Below the pieces are notes generated by a model. It had not been told where the DNA came from, made no database searches, and was given only the letters and a program-made list of their open reading frames with translations. The translations under genes and the position numbers were made by a program. From Malus domestica (taxonomy: Eukaryota > Streptophyta > Magnoliopsida > Rosales > Rosaceae), in NCBI RefSeq assembly GCF_042453785.1, contig NC_091675.1, forward strand, positions 322,501-386,500: 64,000 nt of DNA, given 5' to 3'. Of the stretch, positions 3,900 to 60,400 are shown in pieces. Positions within the stretch are counted from its first letter, which is position 1. Each line of letters starts with the position of its first letter.

Positions 3900-4962
3900 A
3901 TAAGATATTATTATTTGTCTTCATGATTGATGAAAGCACGTTTAATCCCTTCATCTGTTCAAGGAAAAGCATTGGAACGAGAACCGCCACCATCACCATT
4001 GCCACGGTTTACAATAAAGTTTTGAAAAGAAGAAAGGTTTTTAATTAATAGATTAAAACTCCTCATGAACCTATATAAGTACTGCCCACAGAGACAAATG
4101 ATGTTGATTGTTGAAATCTATCCTTTAGTTTAGACATGATGATTTCTCACATCTCTGTAAACCCATTAAATACAAACAAGTCAGTATTTGTAATCCAAAA
4201 AAAAAAGTGATAGATTTACATATATCAGTCTTGTACAATAAAAAGCGCAAAACAAGTGCACTCAATGGTTATATGTTACATCACCGTTCAAGGGTCGTTG
4301 TTCTAAAAAAAAAACTTTATAGTTGTCTAAATATTTAGAAATTGCTAGACAAAACAAAAATGAAAATAAGTAAAATCAAGTAGGTAACCCAATTAATTTA
4401 ACCAAACAGAGACTATACTAGTGTACCATCTCAAGTGTCAAGTGACTCATACAAGTAATATTCAATAAGATAAATTCATTAATTTACGTGACAAGTACAC
4501 ATCACTTGTCATGTTATATGATATACCAATATTATTACCATCTGCATCTAGTATTTGGTTATTGTGAATTATAATTGTGATATCGGTGTCTTGCACATTA
4601 TTATATTTGGTGGAACTCTTTTTACCAAAAGAATTGTGCTCTTTTCACTAAAGAATTGTATGATTGCATTACATATTTGTGTCCATATGGGGGTGGGGTT
4701 GGCATCATATATTCTCTCACGGGACCAAGTTAACTTTCTCTTCGTTTTTACTATAAAATTGGATGATTGCTTTTATCGTTTCATGTCCAAGTACATAGGG
4801 TGGAGGATGTCAAAGATGAGGAAGTGGATTCTCATCCTATTTGGTGTAAACAAGTATTAGCAACCGTGGGAAGCATTGAGCCGCCAGTCAGTTCCCAGTG
4901 CGTAGAATAAATGTTGTTTCGTCTTATAAGTAGAAGCTACATCCATAATTAATCTTTCTAAG

Positions 4963-7900
4963 TTACTTGTTCCAAACAGCATATCTGTGGCCGCTGGTTG
5001 CCAGTGTCCACTCCCTACTGGCCGGGCACCATGAACCATCCCCAATTTTCATGCAGATTTTCTCCCCTATTATAGCAGAGTAGAGGTTCGGCTGGGCCTC
5101 CAGGATCGTAATAGATGATCGGCTGTGAATGTCTTGACGCTTCCTGATGTCAATCTGCAGACAAGTGCCAATGCTAACAAATGAGAAACGTTTGTTCAAA
5201 AAGCATCAAGTCCAAAAAGGGAACTGCCTATGGCCGTATACTGCATACCAGTTTCACAATCTGATCATGAATGGAGTCACCCCAATCATAGAAATGATCG
5301 TAGAAAACTGTTGGTATTCCTGGGTGCATGAGTATGTATGCGTAACCCTGCGGAAAGCATTGACGTGGAAGTTAGCGAACTTGCACTCCAATTTTTAGGT
5401 AGGTAATAAGAATTATTCCCATATTAATTAGAATATAGCAGCTGCCAGCAATAACAACAATGACAAGAATATTATGCATCTGGATTTCCCATCTAAATGC
5501 AAAGCATTTGAACTTAATAAACAAGTTTTCGTACCTCCATAATATGATTTGAAGGGAAGGGCCAATGAGCCTGCAAGACAAAATGATTATAATGTGAGTG
5601 GATTTCCTACTTTCACTATGGAGCCAAAAGGTCACTTTCTGAAATGATAGGTACCACAGTAACATAAATGAGATACTTTTGTATGCAGTGAAAATGTAGT
5701 TTTATACAGAGAAAGTATTAATCAGGGTTGTTTAGGCCCAAACTTGACCTGTTCAGCCCAAAAGATTGTAAGTCTAAGTTCTCACTTCTCAATGATATTT
5801 ACTTCAGCAGAACAGAATAGCAATCGTACCTGTGTTGAGCCTGTATCATGGTTATCAAGGAATGTGACAGCTCTCGACGGCCACCATCCAATTAAACCTG
5901 GTGGCTTCCCTTGGGGGTCACGCAGGCGCCACAATTGTCCTTTAACAGCTTCCTGCAATGAATGCATGGATAAATGTCCAAACACCAAACAAGAAAATAG
6001 GAAGGGGCGGTGGCAACCGGAAGAAAAAGGAAAGGGAAATGGTATTCGTTGATGAAGAGATATTTTGATGAGTATGGACGTTATTACAATCTAGAAAAAA
6101 GGTGGCCAGTACTACGGATACAGCAGACGGAACAGACTTGGAAGGGGTACTAGTATTCATAGAATCATAGGTGAAGAGAGATTTTGATGAAGATTGCTAC
6201 ATGTTTTCTTTTCTGATATATAATAAAAAGGTTCACCAGTACATGTTTTCTTATATATAAAGGGTTCACCAGGACTCATTATTCGTGATTGCAGACGTCC
6301 ATTCTTAACAAACTGTTATGTATGTGTGTTAAGGGATGGGCTGCAGTTGGATATGCCAGTTTGTTTGCAAATGGAAGATACCTGAAGAATTCCCTTGGTT
6401 GTGAAGTCAAACGCAGTTGATAGCTGTCCAGTGCCATTGATCCAATTTACTATCCGCTGTCTGTGGCTATCTGCATAACATTACCAATCATGATAAAGAT
6501 CAAACAGTCAGCTCAATGCTAAATCCTCAGTAGAAAGAGATTTGATCACTGAACCCATTTAAGACAGCAAATTACAATACAGGTCAAATGGAAGGGCAAA
6601 AAGGAATGCTATCAACAGGGATAAGCTACCCTTTATACGGTAGTATGCAGTGTCAAACTTATTAAGTTCTTCAAGCCCAATACCCTGCACATCTCAAAAC
6701 CATATAATCCAATACCTTGGTTGTAATCCAGGCCATGATCGTTATAGTTGCAAGAGTCCCAATACTCCCCAACAGAAAAAATTGGTTTTGCTCCTTCAAT
6801 GTATTCTTTCACATATTTTGCTGAATAACTATTGTAACATTGAAAACACGTAATGGCCAATTAAATCAAAGACAAGGAAAAAAGAGTAAGCAGTGAATAA
6901 ACCCAGTTACAAACGAAACGAAACTCAATTTTATGCATGTATATGTCTTACCCCCTTGCAAAATCAAATCGGAAATCCTGAAAACCAACATTATTACGTA
7001 GCCACTGCAGCCATCCTGTAATATCTTTTCGAACAAAAGGTTGGCTATGATCAATATTCGGAACCCCATGGAAATTGTCACCAGTACTTCGATTACCCTG
7101 ATATATAAAATACAGAGAAAAACAATGAGCTTAACAGACATTGCATCATGAATCATGCAGAGTCATTCAAGCAGTGACAGATTTCATTACCAGTCCACCG
7201 GTACAAGATGTGACAGCACGTTCATCCCATGACAATGAAATTCCATCATAGCGGTTGTACATTCCACCATGCCCTCGGGTAGTCCCAACACGATGATTGA
7301 TAACAATGTCAGCCATTGCTCTAACTTTATGTTGCTTCATTTTTTGAAGTAAAGATTTTATTAAGTTCTCGGATCCATATTTAGAATTGAGGGAATATAT
7401 GTCCTGCGGAAGGTAACCTACAATAAGAGAAAAAGAAAAAAAACATGATGGTCCAATCATCTATATGCAGAGAGAATAAGAAACCAGCCTAGAAAATTTG
7501 TGCATCCAACCTTCTGGTGCAAAGGATTGAGTTGCTGGTGGCAACCATGCTGACGTAAAACCAGATCTTCCTATATCCGGAACTTTTGTTTCTAAATTTC
7601 TCCACCAATCATGTTTATGAGACTCCCAATTGAAGGCCTGTAGATATAGTTCAGTCAAACCATATTCTTGATTAAGCTGAGAGCTATAATAGCTTTAATG
7701 CAACCAAAACAATTTACCATCATTACAGTATTAAGTAAATAAAAAAAAGTTTGAAACATACAGCTGCGACCGTTTTACTTATCCAACAATACAGAACACC
7801 GCGGTTTAATCACTTCAACTATATATTTTATGTATAAAATGGCTCCGACAAGTTGTTGTACATATCTTAGTATTATATGGAAACTGTCAAATTTACCTGA

Positions 7901-8386
7901 AAAAGGATTTCTCTTCCATTGCGCACTGCTGCACCTGCAAATGAATCCGAAAGCATACTTTAGTGTCAAGAAAAGGAAGATACGTAAAATGTTCTCAATG
8001 AACCAAGCATTCTAATGTCAGAAAATACCACATTTATATGAACACAAGATAACTAGAGAGCTTAATCTATGCCTATTCAACATGTGCAGTTATAATTCTT
8101 AATGTTCGTGATTGAAATTTCCAAATTCACAAGAGAAAGTACGATCTGCCTTTTCATACGGCCTATTTGAATCCCTTATCCCCTTTAATCACAGAGAATT
8201 AATGGAAAGCATCACCGGGCAAAAGCAAAAGCATACCAATATCATTCTGCTGCGCGTTTTCTCGTGAATCCTGCATTTTATCAAAATGGAAAATTAGAGA
8301 AAAGAAGTCCTCTACTCTTGTGTATGTGTGTGAATGAGTGAGAGAGATTGAGAAGGCGTGTATACATTGCTGCGTAGGTAACCCAT
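4963..8386 (-). CDS. AMY2: Cytosolic alpha-amylase, AMY2 type
   Basis: A glycoside hydrolase family 13 endo-amylase that cuts alpha-1,4 bonds in starch or glucan. Twelve coding exons were joined at GT-AG sites: 8386-8366, 8270-8237, 7934-7897, 7637-7511, 7417-7191, 7097-6952, 6828-6716, 6470-6382 (inner edge +/-1), 5952-5830, 5570-5535, 5347-5249 and 5154-4963. The product is about 414 residues, close to the 413 of Arabidopsis AMY2. The start MGYLRSN opens without a signal peptide, and unlike plastid AMY3 there is no long N-terminal extension, so cytosol is expected. The catalytic triad is visible: Asp194 in FRFDFARG, Glu219 in FSVGEYWDS and Asp301 in [14 protein letters not shown] supplies the metal and substrate region, and the C-terminal beta domain ends [11 protein letters not shown] noncoding first exon ends at the donor at 8800. 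The gene is divergent from the pseudouridine synthase gene across a duplicated promoter. No frame damage is seen. Confidence 0.95.
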
Positions 8387-8799
8387 TCGACTCAGGATGT
8401 AGTTTCCCAACTCGGCACCGGATTGCAAATAAGGCACCAACAGTTAATCCTACATGGATGAACAACATGAGTGCACCAAAACATTGGCCAGATGACCATA
8501 AAGCTATAAAATCACAATTGACTAGCACAAAAAATAGAGGAGAAGACATTAAAATCTTGCTGATGATAAACGTTCATCCGTTTCGTCTCATATTTCGCGA
8601 GAACAAAGTCATACAGGTTAAAATTAATAAAACCCAACACGAATGTAAGCACAAGTGTATTTAATTTGCTCAACTACAAGTCTACAACTAGAAGATGATT
8701 CCATGAGCTTGAAATGTGAAAAAATGCAGGGCTTCGGACCTTTTACGCATTCTTAAATTCTTAATAACGAATTTCAAGGGGGAGAAAATTGAGACGTAC

Positions 8800-9118
8800 C
8801 GAAGGCTCTACGGCTGGCTGCGATTGCGGTTGTGGGTTTGTGGTTGTGCCGTTGGGCAACATAAATAGCACAAACAAAAAGCTGAAAATTCGAGGGAGAC
8901 CACCGAATTCGAATCACGCCGACGAACGACACAAGTTGAAAAGGTGAAAAGAGAATATTGAAAGCTGTGCTGTAAAAGGAAGAAAAAGGATTCGATTGCG
9001 AAACGCGATGGAGGGAAGGGGAGACAAGGATTGGAGGGAATGTTCATACTCCCCGAGGCCGCTCTCATGCCTCATGCTGCAGACTGCAACATGAACCGTA
9101 GAAACGATGTACGGATAC
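8800..9118 (-). other. Noncoding first exon of AMY2 (proximal copy)
   Basis: On the minus strand this segment ends at a good donor (CTTCG|GTACG at 8800/8799), just inside the proximal edge of the duplicated unit, and is preceded by a TATA-like motif at 9145-9151. It would join to an acceptor upstream of the ATG at 8386; I could not choose that acceptor confidently. A short open frame across it has no homology features and is probably leader sequence. Confidence 0.55.
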
Positions 9119-9144
9119 ATTGAAACGTGGCATTTCACTATAGA

Positions 9145-9151
9145 CTTATAG
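9145..9151 (-). promoter_or_regulatory. Predicted TATA box of AMY2 (proximal copy)
   Basis: The minus strand reads CTATAAG, about 25-35 bp before the predicted AMY2 leader exon. The inner end of the MITE begins only 6 bp upstream, so the proximal promoter above the TATA box would be transposon-derived. The identical motif recurs at about 10178-10184 in the second unit. Assignment is by motif and position. Confidence 0.4.
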
Positions 9152-9157
9152 GGGGGA

Positions 9158-9576
9158 GGGGCGTTTGTTGCGTCGGTCTATCTCGTACTTGACTAGCTTC
9201 AAGGATTAAGTTGGACTGGCTTAGACTAGACTAAGCTGGACTAACTTAATGAAGCGTTTGGTGCAGTGTTGGACTAAAAAACTGAATAATAACAAATTCT
9301 AATATTATATTATTTAATATATAAATTATTAATATTTTATTATAATCTAGGTAACCGGAGATGACGAGGAGTCTATCGGAATGGTCGTTGAGCATGACGA
9401 GGTCGAGAGATGATAGTCTTAGCTAGTTCCATGGTTATTGGGGGGTCTCGCTAAGACCTCTTAGTGAAGGGTTTTGTCCATGCTAGTCCCCTTTAGTCTT
9501 ATCAATGTTAGTCCCAGCATGGAACAAATACAGTATTGGACTACAGCTAGTCCAGTCCAGTCCAGTTAAACGCCCC
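9158..9576. mobile_element. MITE with GGGGCGTTT termini, copy in unit 1
   Basis: Perfect 9-bp inverted ends GGGGCGTTT...AAACGCCCC enclose about 419 bp of noncoding DNA. The interior has several inverted tgga-cta type motifs (gactagactaagctgg, gctagtccagtccag) and the motif GCGTTTGGTGCAGT, which recurs in the larger TIR element at 45613-46600. No clear target-site duplication is visible, so the superfamily is open; hAT-like or PIF-like are both possible. Confidence 0.65.
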
Positions 9577-9790
9577 CCGGAGATGGCGTAAGACCTATAA
9601 CTTTAGGCCTTGGGCCTTAGTATTTCCCTTTCCAATCTGGGCCTATCTTCGGCCCAACCGAAACAGAAGGACCCACCAATGCGCGTGGGCCTGCGAGACT
9701 GACTTCGAACTTCCCAAGTTCGCTCGCATGATTCGCACAGCAAATTCAAGGGCCACTTTCAGGGGCACCCCAGTAATTAAGCCAAAACAA

Positions 9791-10818
9791 AATAACGAAT
9801 TTCAAGGGGGAGAAAATTGAGACGTACCGAAGGCTCTACGGCTGGCTGCGATTGCGGTTGTGGGTTTGTGGTTGTGCCGTTGGGCAACATAAATAGCACA
9901 AACAAAAAGCTGAAAATTCGAGGGAGACCACCGAATTCGAATCACGCCGACGAACGACACAAGTTGAAAAGGTGAAAAGAGAATATTGAAAGCTGTGCTG
10001 TAAAAGGAAGAAAAAGGATTCGATTGCGAAACGCGATGGAGGGAAGGGGAGACAAGGATTGGAGGGAATGTTCATACTCCCCGAGGCCGCTCTCCTCTCA
10101 TGCCTCATGCTGCAGCCTGCAACATGAACCGTAGAAACGATGTACGGATACATTGAAACGTGGCATTTCACTATAGACTTATAGGGGGAGGGGCGTTTGT
10201 TGCGTCGGTCTATCTCGTACTTGAAGCTAGGATTAAGTTGGACTGGCTTAGACTAGATTAAGCTGGACTAACTTAATGAAGCGTTTGGTGCAGTGTTGGA
10301 CTAAGAAACTGAATAATAATAAATTCTAATATTATATTATTTAATATATAAATTATTAATATTTTATTATAATCTAGGTAACCGAAGATGACGAGAAGTC
10401 TATCGGGAATGGTCGTTGAGCATGACGAGGTCGAGAGATGATAGTCTTAGCTAGTTCCATGGTTATTGGGGGGTCTCGCTAAGACCTGTTAGTGAAGGAT
10501 TTTGTCCATGCTAGTCCCCTTTAGTCTCATCAATGTTAGTTCCAGCATGGAACAAATACAGTATTGAACTACAGCTAGTCCAGTCTAGTCCAGTTAAACG
10601 CCCCCTGGAGATGGCGTAAGACCTATAACTTTAGGCCTTGGGCCTTAGTATTTCCCTTTCCAATCTGGGCCTATCTTCGGCCCAACCGAAACAGAAGGAC
10701 CCACCAATGCGCGTGGGCCTGCGAGACTGACTTCGAACTTCCCAAGTTCGCTCGCATGATTCGCACAGCAAATTCAAGGGCCACTTTCAGGGGCACCCCA
10801 GTAATTAAGCCAAAACAA
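9791..10818. repeat. Tandem duplication, unit 2 (AMY2/PUS bidirectional promoter)
   Basis: The second unit carries a full extra copy of the AMY2 noncoding exon with its splice donor (about 9828-10146), the TATA-like motif and the MITE, and it ends about 90 bp before the pseudouridine synthase ATG. The 210 bp nearest the pseudouridine synthase are identical in the two units. The distal AMY2 exon could act as an alternative first exon; this is inferred, and transcript data are needed to decide. Confidence 0.95.
10190..10604. mobile_element. MITE with GGGGCGTTT termini, copy in unit 2
   Basis: The duplicated partner of the element at 9158-9576, about 415 bp, with the same perfect 9-bp ends. It differs from its partner by about a dozen substitutions, mostly transitions, plus a small deletion near the left end. 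The copy arose by segmental duplication, not by a new insertion, because the flanks are identical. Confidence 0.65.
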
Positions 10819-10910
10819 AATAGCAAGTAAAACATGGTCTCGTTCTAGGGTTTTATCGGGGTACAGAGAAAACTGCAAGTTTGCAAGATGCCTACTTCCT
10901 GTTAATTGAA

Positions 10911-12741
10911 ATGGAGTGTCCTCCACCAACGTTAACAAGCCCCACTCACATCACTGACAATCCAGATACGAAACCCACTAGGTCACCGCCGTCGCCGTGG
11001 CCACAAGAGCCCGACCCCAAGAAGCTCAAAATGTCCACCACCACCACCAGCGACGACGAAGAAGCTACCGCCGCCGCCACCAACGCCGCTAAAACGCCAC
11101 GGTACAAGCGCCGAAAGGTTGCAATATTCTTCGCTTATTTAGGCGTCGGATACCAAGGAATGCAAAAGAATCCAGGCGCCAAAACCATCGAGGGGGACCT
11201 CGAAGAAGCTCTCTACCTTTCCAACGCCGTCCCCGAGCAGGACCGCAACAGCCCTAAGCGCTACGACTGGGCCCGCTCCGCCCGCACCGATAAGGGGGTC
11301 AGCGCCGTCGGCCAGGTTGTCTCGGGCCGCTTCTATGTCGATCCGCCGGGATTCATCGACCGCCTCAATTCAAACCTTTCTCCTCAGATTCGGATTTTCG
11401 GCTACAAACGCGTCACGGCGTCGTTTAACGCGAAGAAGTTCTGTGATCGGAGAAGGTATGTGTATCTGATTCCCGTATTTGCTCTTGATCCTTCTGCTCA
11501 TCGCGATAGAGGGAGCGTGTTGGCTAGTCTTGGGTCTGATCAGGAGTTTGTTAAGTGCTTGGAGTGCTCCGAGAGAGGGCGTAAAGTCGGGGGCTTGATG
11601 GGTAAGCGCACGTATGAATTGAGAGGTACGAATTTTGAGGTAAGCATTTCGTCCAACACCAATGAGTCTATGGTTGAATCTGAAATTGGTGAAAAATTTA
11701 GGGTTCTTCCCGGAAATGCTGGCTGTGATAATTTGATTTCTGAGACCAGAAATGAAGTTAGCCTTAGCATTAATGAAGAAATTAAGGTTCTTACGGAGAA
11801 TGCTGGGGTTGATAATTCGAATTCTGAACTCAAAACTGAAATTAGCATTAGTATTAATAACAATGAGGTTACTGAAATTGAGGTTGAGAATAATCGAGTG
11901 GTCCCCAATGAGGCAGAGGCTGCTGATTTGAATTCGGAGTCACTAGATGATACGAATGTTAGTTTTGGTGAAGAGAAGGCTAATGAAAAAGAGAATACAG
12001 AGGAAGGAAGTGGAAAAGGAAATGGGTTTTGTTATGGTGAGAAGGAGAGGGAAAGGTTCAACAAAATTTTGAATAGTTATGAGGGGACTCATAACTTCCA
12101 CAACTTCACCACCAGAACTAAAGCTGTAGACCCCGCTGCTCAGCGCTACATTATTTCATTCAATGCGAACACCACGGTTACAGTTGAGGGTATGGAATTC
12201 GTTAAGTGTGAGGTTGTGGGGCAGAGCTTCATGCTTCATCAGATTAGGAAGATGATCGGGCTTGCGGTGGCAATCTTCAGGGGATGTGCTCCAGAGTCAT
12301 TGCTCGAAAGAGCATTGCAAAAGTAAGTATTTGGATGATCATAGTATGTTTGTGTATGCTTTTTGTTTTTTTGATTTTGAGAAAGTATGTATGTTTAACT
12401 GAGTTTTTTATGCACAAAAATTCAGGGATGTTAACATCAATGTGCCGACAGCTCCTGAAGTTGGATTGTACTTGGATGAGTGCTTCTTTTCGTCATATAA
12501 CCAGAAATGGGGAGACAGTCATGAAGAGCTGTCAATGAAAGGCTATGAACAAGAGGCAGAAGACTTCAAGATGAAGCATATATACACTCACATAGCATCC
12601 ACCGAGCATAAAGAAGGTGTTGTGGGTCTCTGGTTGCACTCCCTCAACCACCGTAACTATCCGGATTTAGGTCCTGCTGAGAACAATGGAAATACCAGCA
12701 ACGGAATAAGTGCTGATACGGGTAATGTCGTTGCTGAGTAA
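10911..12741 (+). CDS. tRNA pseudouridine synthase, TruA/PUS1 family
   Basis: Converts specific uridines in tRNA to pseudouridine. Two exons, 10911-12322 and 12426-12741, are joined at CAAAA|GTAAGT...TTCAG|GGATG and give 575 residues. The first ATG in frame is at 10911 (MECPPPT); an in-frame upstream TTG is not used as a start here. The N-terminal 65 residues are proline/threonine rich and acidic. The TruA core follows: KVAIFFAYLGVGYQGMQ, then SARTDKGVSAVGQ with the catalytic Asp127, and later HNFHNFTTRTKA and GQSFMLHQIRKMIGL. A low-complexity acidic insert of about 150 residues, with repeated E-I-S-I-S-like segments, separates the two halves of the core. The last exon holds EVGLYLDECFF, typical of eukaryotic Pus1. 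It is next to AMY2, as I recall for Arabidopsis At1g76120. Nuclear or mitochondrial location cannot be decided. Confidence 0.93.
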
Positions 12742-13446
12742 GTTTTTTTTTTTTTTTTCCCACAGGGAATCCGATTTCTTCAATGTATGCCTTTTATTTC
12801 TTCAATGAATACAGCATCTAGCTCTAATGTCTTTTAGGGAAAACAAAAGATGTGGCCCAGTTTCATTCATGGTTTAGGTTACTTGCTGTGTAATTCTTCT
12901 TAGAGAGGAATTTATGATTACAGAAGGGTTTTAAGAAAGTTGATTTATCCCACAGGTTCCTTTCTCTCCTAATTTTTTTTTGTCCGTGGTTCATCATATC
13001 CATAGCCGATGGACGTGCATATATTTGTAAGTTGAAAATTGGGACATTGACCCTTAAACTATGGCCAATTTGTATCTTTGGCTTCTCAACTTACATTCCA
13101 TTAACATCAATATTTGAATTTGGCAAAATGAGGGATGTTGGTCTTTCACGGGAGAATTTTCATCAAAATGAAGCACGTGAGCCCTTTTTAGATAAATGGG
13201 GAAACTCAGTGTACACAGATGTCCCTTAACTTTGACAGAAGAGTTCACATAGAATTGATTAAGAAGTTACATTATGGGCCTTGGTTTAACGGCCCAGTTT
13301 CACTTCCGAATTCCAAATCGAGCGACTTTCCCAATGGTCCAATGTCAACTCGAGTGTCGTGATTCTCGTGAATAATTGTTATAGTTGGAAGGAGAGCCAA
13401 ATCTCTGGCGGGGGGCGTCGGGGGTCCTCCGTGTCTACCCGCGAAA
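12742..13446. other. Spacer between the PUS and F-box genes
   Basis: Holds the 3' region of the pseudouridine synthase gene, including a T-rich tract right after the stop, and the leader of the F-box gene. I recognise no other gene or repeat. Confidence 0.6.
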
Positions 13447-18256: not shown

Positions 18257-18430
18257 AATCTATATAAGCGTTTGAAGTAGACATATGTGATGTATAGCAT
18301 CAATCAAAAGAGAGGTTGAAGAATATAGGAAAAACATGAAAGGAATCTATATAAGCGTTTGAAGTAGACATATGTGATGTATAGCATCAATCAAAAGAGA
18401 GGTTGAAGAATATAGGAAAAACATGAAAGG
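18257..18430. repeat. Direct tandem repeat, 87 bp x 2
   Basis: The block beginning aatctatataagcgtttgaa is repeated immediately, with no visible mismatch, at an offset of 87 bp. It ends 11 bp before the tRNA-Pro-like gene. The near identity indicates a recent local duplication. No coding meaning is apparent. Confidence 0.95.
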
Positions 18431-18441
18431 ATAGGCCCATA

Positions 18442-57466: not shown

Positions 57467-60400
57467 TTTCCGGTATCGCCGGTGCACCCCCGCGCCCCTC
57501 TAGCCCCTTTTTGTTGTATTTTATTTTTGTGTTATCCTATTTTAATTATCTTTCTAATCTAGGTTTGTTTTCCTTTTTTTTCTTCGTTTACTTGACCCGC
57601 TAATTTATTATCATTCTCATGTAATTTTGTTTTGGAATTATTTAAGTTTGTGGTTGGATGGATTGGATCTTTGCTCCGTTTTGTTTAATTTCTTTGATAT
57701 TTTTTATTTCAGTATTGCCTTAAATGATGTGCCTAATTTCTTGTGTGCATTGTCTTTTGAATTTGACGTTTCAAAATTCATAAGTTAATAATGAATTTGT
57801 GCCACATAAAGACAATGCTAAGCTGTTAATTGCGATGTATACAATACATTGATGTACTCTAGGACTTTTGTCATGTAAATGTAATGAGACGACAGGATCA
57901 AAGGGTTATTGTGTATTTGTGATTTAGCGATGAGAAATGAAGTGAACACGTTCATAAACTAAATACCGATGCAGTAACGATTAGTTCAATAACATAATTT
58001 GAAGTATTAATTTTTGTTTGCATATGATTGTGTTATTGACTAGACATAAATGTATCCAGTAAGTGTAAGTAATTCTCTCATTTCCGCCAAGAAAAATGCA
58101 GGGATGAAGGGGTGTATGGTACAATTGGCAAGCAGTGTGGAAAGTCGGGGGGAGCCCCTTGACTCTTGTGTTGTTGGCTGTAGGAGTAGCGGAGTGAGTT
58201 CAGATTTCAGAAACTGAGTGTCAGTCACAGTGGCGCCAAATCTGTGTTGGCACTTGGCAGTTTGTTTGGCTCTGTGTCACGTTGCTCTTGATGTTTAGCT
58301 ACGCCTGCCAACATGCCGACATATCTGGGCCCACACCCACCCGGGTTTGGTTTGGTTTAGACTGAGTTGGTTGGGTTGGTTTGGGTTTGGATCTCTCTCA
58401 TCTCATCCCACCCCGGTTGTTTTCTTTGTTTTCCATGCTACTTTGCCAGCCGCTGCTACTGCCACTCCCACCGGGTCTGTTCATTTTCTTTATAATTTTC
58501 GGCACGTGACACGCCACCCTGTATTTGTTGGCACGTAATAATAATATTATTAATGGCTTATTCTTTTCCCTACAGTTATAATTATATTATTTGTTGGCAC
58601 ATAATTATATCAATGTGGTAGAGTCTCACATTGAGAGAGTCTCTTTAGCATTTCTCTTTTGTATGTGTATTGAATAATTTGAATATGAGTATTATCTTGC
58701 CTTGTTATCTACGTTCCACTTTGGTGCTACGTACCAATAAATACTCTGAGTATTGAATAATTTAAATTCACGACACCATAATTAAAGTCATAATCTAAAT
58801 AATTATTCAATACTCGTAACATTTTATATTACGTAACATGCAATAATTTTCTTTATTGTCTGTCCTGATTCATAAATATATGTATTGAATAATTTGAATA
58901 TGAGTATTATCTTGCCTTGTTATCTACGTTCCACTTTGGTGCTACGTACCAATAAATACTATGAGTAATGAATAATTTGAATTCACGACACCATAATTAA
59001 AGTCATAATCTAAATAATTATTCAATACTCGTAACATTTTATATTACGTAACATGCAATAATTTTCTTTATTTTTAGTCCTGATTCATAAATATGAGTAA
59101 ATGCATTAATTAATATGTTTATTGAAGTGGCACTTGAAATGCTTTGCCAATTGCCATATGGGAATATTTTTGCTCATTACTTTCAAGTGATTGTGATGCT
59201 CATCACTCAATTCATCATCGTTAGATGAGTTTAATTTTCGAAATTTGTATTATAGATATATACAAATTTCTAAATTTTAACTCATCCAATAATAATAGAT
59301 AAGGTCGTGAGCATTACGACCACTTAAAGGTGGTGAGTCTGATATTTTGAAGGGGCACAATTCAATTACAAATTTGGAAGAAAAACTTTGTGAAAGGCGA
59401 TTGGTGTTTTTTGACTAAGCCATCCCCCAAAGGCCCTTAATTTGTACACAAAAAAGATGGGTGTTCTCACTAAGCCTGGATATTTTTTGGGTCTGTGGAA
59501 TTGAAGGTTCATTTATTCATGTTTGATTAGTCAAAACTCAAAGTTGTGGTTCTAGCTGATTGCGTGAATAGCAAACATTGTTCCTACCCAAAAATATCCG
59601 GTGATGTATGTTAGTGTTATATCCAGATTCCAAATGGCTCTAAACTTCCAAATCCAATACTTCTAATTTCTATTTGATTATTCTAGCGGCGTATCCTAAC
59701 TGATATGAGAATCTTTCTTCTCACTACACTTCTGTCCAAGCGTTTTCACTAAAGTAATTTTTTTGTGTGGAAGACCCTAAAGTACTAGAGATTTTTTAAA
59801 ACTATTTGTGGCATAAACGCTTATGAGCACAAGTTTTTGAGAGCTCCTATTATGTTGGGGTTGATTTGTGGAGTTCTTGGCACCTTTTGATTGAAATTAG
59901 ACAGTGCAAGTTAAAACTAGGTGTATGGTACGAGCGAACACACTATAGTAAATGGAGCGATACAAACGTCGTTAACTATGATACATCAATGATGTTAATA
60001 CATCGTTATGTTGACGTATTGATACCAATTATAGATGTCACTATCAATAATGTCTACCCAATATCAATTGTAACTTCTCAGATCTCATTTCCCGGTCTTT
60101 CCTTTCTTCATCGTGTCCACTTTCATCGCAACTACCATTGAAAACATCGCCAACTTGATTTTCTTAGCCACCACCACGACGATCTCCATGGTTCCTCTCT
60201 AATCCAATGTTGTTTGACCTTTTGTACACAACTATTTGTTTAACCTCATATGTTGGTTTGAATTTAACGACAAGAATTCGATTTCCAAAACGTCCCTCAT
60301 TATAAAAATACTTCCAAACGGACCATTAAAGTATAACTTGAAGGTGGATGTCCGTTGTTCAACAATTTGTTGTTACTCAAACCCATTTGAATGAACATGC

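Follow-up and report, generated by a model that had tools for sequence, protein, structure and literature searches.

A 1,028-bp tandem duplication between divergent alpha-amylase and pseudouridine synthase genes of apple carries a second AMY2 first exon

The sequence that lies between an alpha-amylase gene (AMY2) and a divergent tRNA pseudouridine synthase gene (PUS) on chromosome 15 of apple (Malus domestica) is present twice, raising the questions of whether the duplication is real, how it arose and whether it changes the expression of either gene. Within the window (the whole stretch of 64,000 nucleotides that was analysed), the first unit (8763–9790) abuts the second (9791–10818) in direct orientation, each being 1,028 bp long. 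Their alignment has 1009 identical columns out of 1034, the remainder comprising 13 substitutions and five gaps that total 12 columns, and the initial 300 bases of the two units show no difference. Identity over the 1022 ungapped columns is 98.7%, confirming a preliminary description of two adjoining units of about 98.5% identity, and chance cannot account for a 1-kb match at such a level. A search of the assembly (651 Mb, 19 contigs) with the AMY2 exon-1 half of the unit (8763–9157) recovered five matches, with only the two units being near-identical; the other three were the chromosome 8 ohnolog (85% identity over partial length) and a short fragment each on C2 and C1. We consider it likely that the locus records a real, one-step duplication of 1,028 bp that came after the insertion of a MITE, gave AMY2 a spare first exon and is most probably tolerated.

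The alpha-amylase gene, which we presume from its resemblance to be of the AMY2 subtype, was modelled on the minus strand with 12 exons and a 428-aa frame, and its product contains the Pfam domains Alpha-amylase and Alpha-amyl_C2. Exons 2–12 occupy positions 4963–8270 (from 8270–8237 down to 5154–4963), with AG/GT borders read, and the 63-bp coding exon 1 (8800–8862, minus strand) is in frame with the 11 downstream exons. Unit 2 contains an identical copy of this exon (exon 1', 9828–9890, minus strand), and the donor (GTACGT) is intact in both. These features bear out the claim that each unit has a whole AMY2 first exon and splice donor, and they support the possibility of two alternative first exons. 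Because the two units have the same exon 1 and a first exon has no acceptor, the same protein would result whichever donor is spliced to exon 2 (8270). Transcripts started in unit 2 would splice exon 1' past unit 1 to exon 2 and would thereby alter only the leader; the AMY2 leaders of the two units are a 5-base insertion (10090–10094, in unit 2) and one substitution apart. The long intron that exon 1' RNA must traverse contains an AATAAA at 9341, which could terminate this RNA early. A sigma-70 and terminator scan was set aside because it applies a bacterial model.

The fragments on C2 and C1 support the exon 1 donor as real, since they break exactly there. In these fragments (L016, 4776–4976 on C2; L017, 4858–5051 on C1), the AMY2 leader and exon 1 are joined at the donor point to window positions 8446–8375, which lie in intron 1 of the model, in the manner of a spliced RNA. 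The C2 and C1 sites are 87% identical over 748 columns and may hold one captured AMY2 fragment that was duplicated between them. The stretch at 8375–8446 is a possible alternative AMY2 exon within intron 1; reading on into it from exon 1 leads to an immediate stop.

The first open stretch of PUS runs from 10911 to 12326 on the plus strand, with the gene extending downstream. Its product has the Pfam domain PseudoU_synth_1, and the best matches in a PDB sequence search were PUS1-type enzymes (4iqm, E 9e-58). Together with the Pfam domains of AMY2, these results support the alpha-amylase/pseudouridine synthase gene pair proposed earlier. No other unbroken PUS copy turned up in the genome. Chromosome 15 has two further, partial copies that contain stops, at a distance of 1.6 Mb (C15:1,932,455–1,952,344; L020, L021 and L068–L071), and the PUS coding sequence in the window includes an 84-bp tandem repeat (11690–11858) with two copies of 79% identity.

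On the PUS side, each unit has a cluster of four TGGGCY/RGCCCA motifs within approximately 80 bp (9611–9691 in unit 1 and 10639–10719 in unit 2); the window has 61 such motifs, and nowhere else do four fall within 100 bp. The PUS leader contains the motif TAGGGTTT (10846–10853, plus strand). We take the clustered motifs to be site II elements and the leader motif to be a telobox. Both the telobox and the leader lie beyond the end of the unit, so the PUS half appears to have been copied incompletely. The notion of a complete bidirectional promoter in each unit is unsupported, because these two PUS features are not included and the MITE had separated the two sides before the duplication. PUS would retain one intact start region, formed by unit 2 and the leader, plus an extra, distant site II cluster that has no leader. 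Twenty ATGs, including two that belong to the normal leader, precede the PUS start in an RNA begun at the right end of unit 1, and such an RNA would probably support poor PUS translation unless spliced.

Chromosome 15 shows collinearity with chromosome 8 across the AMY2 region, and 08-15 is an ohnologous pair listed for apple in the cited section of a genome study (PMC13334179). The chromosome 8 ohnolog keeps AMY2 with exon 1 once. PUS is absent from it: a comparison of C8:499,505–501,134 (L014/L015) with the window found no homology, and chromosome 8 homology picks up again at window position 13076. Decoupling of AMY2 and PUS, which had been suggested as an effect of the duplication, is unsupported as such and is seen instead at this ohnolog without PUS. 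Upstream of AMY2, a 38-bp block (9084–9121, with its unit 2 copy at 10117–10154) is 89% identical on chromosome 8 and adjoins the AMY2 start proposed in the preliminary description (9118). The gap from the preceding match to this block is 225 bp on chromosome 8 versus 73 bp here. Conservation of the block favours its role as a putative functional upstream element of AMY2. For a TATA-like box beside the MITE we saw no counterpart on chromosome 8, where the alignment is poor.

The MITE makes up approximately 40% of each unit (9158–9575 in unit 1 and 10186–10603 in unit 2, right ends approximate) and went unmentioned in the first reading. Dispersed copies are numerous: scoring 40 of the 1640 first-look candidates gave 42 matches, a minimum for the family, and most of the copies listed have the ends GGGGGCGTTTG and CAAACAAACGCCCCC. 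In 21 of 37 copies the 3 bp on either side match, being TAA or TTA in most cases. Terminal inverted repeats and a 3-bp TWA target duplication are features of PIF/Harbinger (Tourist-like) elements; the family shows both in its ends and 3-bp flanks, which suggests that it is PIF/Harbinger-like. The copy between AMY2 and PUS is, judging from its sequence, a damaged relative of the family. Its right end is shortened, and no matching 3-bp flanks were seen beside it. Furthermore, the unit copies stand 5.0% and 7.3% away from the family majority versus 0.75–3.2% for 37 other copies that were chosen as best matches. Elsewhere in the genome, two adjacent copies of the MITE occur in opposite orientation (C1:7617711–7618516, L065).

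Both units carry the MITE at the same place and with common derived changes, which indicates that its insertion predates the duplication. We propose that the element inserted between AMY2 and PUS and that a single repair event, by microhomology or end joining across the intergenic region, then produced the tandem units. The four bases AATA at the left breakpoint (8763–8766) recur at 9791–9794 and 10819–10822, leaving the unit boundaries uncertain by 4 bases (unit end at 10818–10822). Four or more shared bases were found in 2.0% of 20,000 random breakpoint pairs spaced 1028 apart. Unequal recombination mediated by the MITE was rejected as the origin, given that the breakpoints lie outside the element and share only 4 bases. 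End joining is likelier because the outer breakpoints have only AATA in common. Error-prone break repair can likewise leave small tandem duplications with abutting copies, and with junction microhomology in the polymerase-theta type; the cited portion of that work concerns mouse and human cells (PMC8355091), and the repair pathway proposed at AMY2 is putative.

Substitutions between the units are concentrated in the MITE, which has 11 of the 13. The MITE thus differs at 11/409 positions versus 1/617 in the flanks, a rounded length (Fisher p = 0.0003, or 0.0012 with position 9578 put in the flank). When the MITE changes were polarised on the 37 copies, nine were derived in unit 2 and two in unit 1 (p = 0.065). 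Ten of the 11 were C>T or G>A and, among the nine given a context, eight were CHH and one CHG. The unit flanks have at most one such change, at position 9578, and its polarity is ambiguous. The C>T/G>A bias is common to the MITE family (208 of 280 changes), which makes the unit differences look like natural divergence, and would be the expected outcome of transposon methylation generally. Local silencing as the source of the C>T excess is unsupported, the family being strongly biased too.

Outside the exons, 290 of 2435 sites in the AMY2 region are different between chromosomes 8 and 15 (JC 0.13; 88% identical). At the age of 27 My given for the apple genome duplication in the cited section (PMC13334179), this divergence corresponds to a rate of 2.4e-9 per site per year. 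The age of the tandem duplication is then approximately 0.3–0.7 My by the flanks (1–2/617), 5.6 My by the MITE (11/409) and 2.7 My by all sites (13/1022). These central estimates are older than apple domestication, which the same source places 4,000–10,000 years ago (PMC13334179), the flank estimate being built on a single change or two. If the MITE-based age were right, the flanks should have changed more, so the ages conflict within a single unit. Reconciling them would need hypermutability of the MITE, constraint or conversion.

Gene conversion would imply that the duplication is older and that its flanks were subsequently made uniform while the MITE was left divergent, a history compatible with the favoured reading as regards the nature of the locus but, in our judgement, quite unlikely. 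It fits the contrast between the MITE and the flanks, and strong constraint explains the quiet flanks poorly, since the chromosome 8 flank of exon 1 (85% identical) shows no clear excess of constraint over non-exon sites in the same region (88%). However, conversion requires two tracts, one on each side of the MITE, and methylation-driven mutability of the element could account for much of the contrast. The units could also be an assembly artefact, with two haplotype versions of the region placed end to end, a reasonable concern of the preliminary description, and their 13 differences over 1022 ungapped columns are at a level that alleles could show. This explanation, too, appears rather improbable, as the window has no Ns and AATA is common to the breakpoints. 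Long reads far exceed 2 kb, which counts further against an artefact if the assembly is long-read based.

A real one-step duplication would most likely be tolerated with little or no effect on expression. The same event could, however, have created a regulatory allele that raises or alters AMY2 or PUS expression, an outcome that we consider unlikely. Such an allele would be consistent with the doubling of the site II cluster and of the sequence upstream of AMY2. There are precedents in the spring-type VRN1 alleles of wheat, which include a promoter duplication, although the cited text does not show the duplication alone to be causal (PMC3095301), and in core-promoter duplications that activate TERT, as described in the cited excerpt (PMC9481613). 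The tendency of derived changes to fall in unit 2 argues against a regulatory effect. Head-to-tail duplication of a divergent promoter also makes the inner pair convergent, which could lead to RNAs that overlap, to small RNAs and to methylation across both units, an outcome that we regard as very improbable. The PUS half of unit 1 faces the AMY2 half of unit 2, so the geometry follows if both halves are active, and the C>T/G>A changes of the MITE, largely in CHH context, are of the expected type. Yet the family-wide bias makes local silencing unnecessary, the unit flanks are nearly free of such changes, and the PUS half of unit 1, which is without leader and telobox, may not initiate RNA. That the inner pair drives antisense RNA over exon 1' together with small-RNA-directed methylation seems slighter still in probability; if true, a self-made epiallele would govern one AMY2 ohnolog as well as PUS, of which no other intact copy was found.

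We regard the duplication as ordinary to mildly interesting, most likely providing two redundant AMY2 first exons for the same protein. Its kind is already known from wheat Vrn-A1a, for which the cited sections mention a proposed duplication of the promoter and first exon and describe a foldback element in the allele and in its duplicated promoter sequences (PMC3095301). The AMY2 units are likewise direct abutting copies with upstream region, whole first exon and donor, and a transposon is involved in both cases. In the same sections, the authors think that the wheat duplication preceded the transposon insertion and that the element is possibly Tc1/Mariner, whereas at AMY2 the MITE came first and is PIF/Harbinger-like. 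Furthermore, the AMY2 region is common to a divergent gene and has no known phenotype. At TERT, native core-promoter sequence is also duplicated in tandem, but the tumour duplications of the cited excerpt are somatic and activate via paired ETS motifs (PMC9481613), whereas the AMY2 duplication is found in an assembled plant genome, spans 1 kb and includes an exon. The R6:MYB10 promoter minisatellite is another example, from apple itself, of regulatory repeats preceding a gene, although R6, as presented in the cited passages, multiplies a short motif (PMC5671642, PMC11321683) and the AMY2 segment is 1 kb long with an exon and a MITE. We found nothing in the literature that combined a tandem duplication, a bidirectional promoter and an alternative first exon; what is new is the example at a divergent gene pair, probably with little or no effect. 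The locus offers a natural case of a tandem-duplicated divergent promoter region, for which the chromosome 8 ohnolog, having one AMY2 first exon and no PUS, can serve as a control from the same genome. It is also a case of a transposon diverging faster than its flanks within one duplicated unit. Its practical weight is small unless expression differs. The window contains two further tandem duplications of high identity, at 58662–59094 (two copies of 215 bp, 96%) and 18257–18431 (two copies of 87 bp, 100%).
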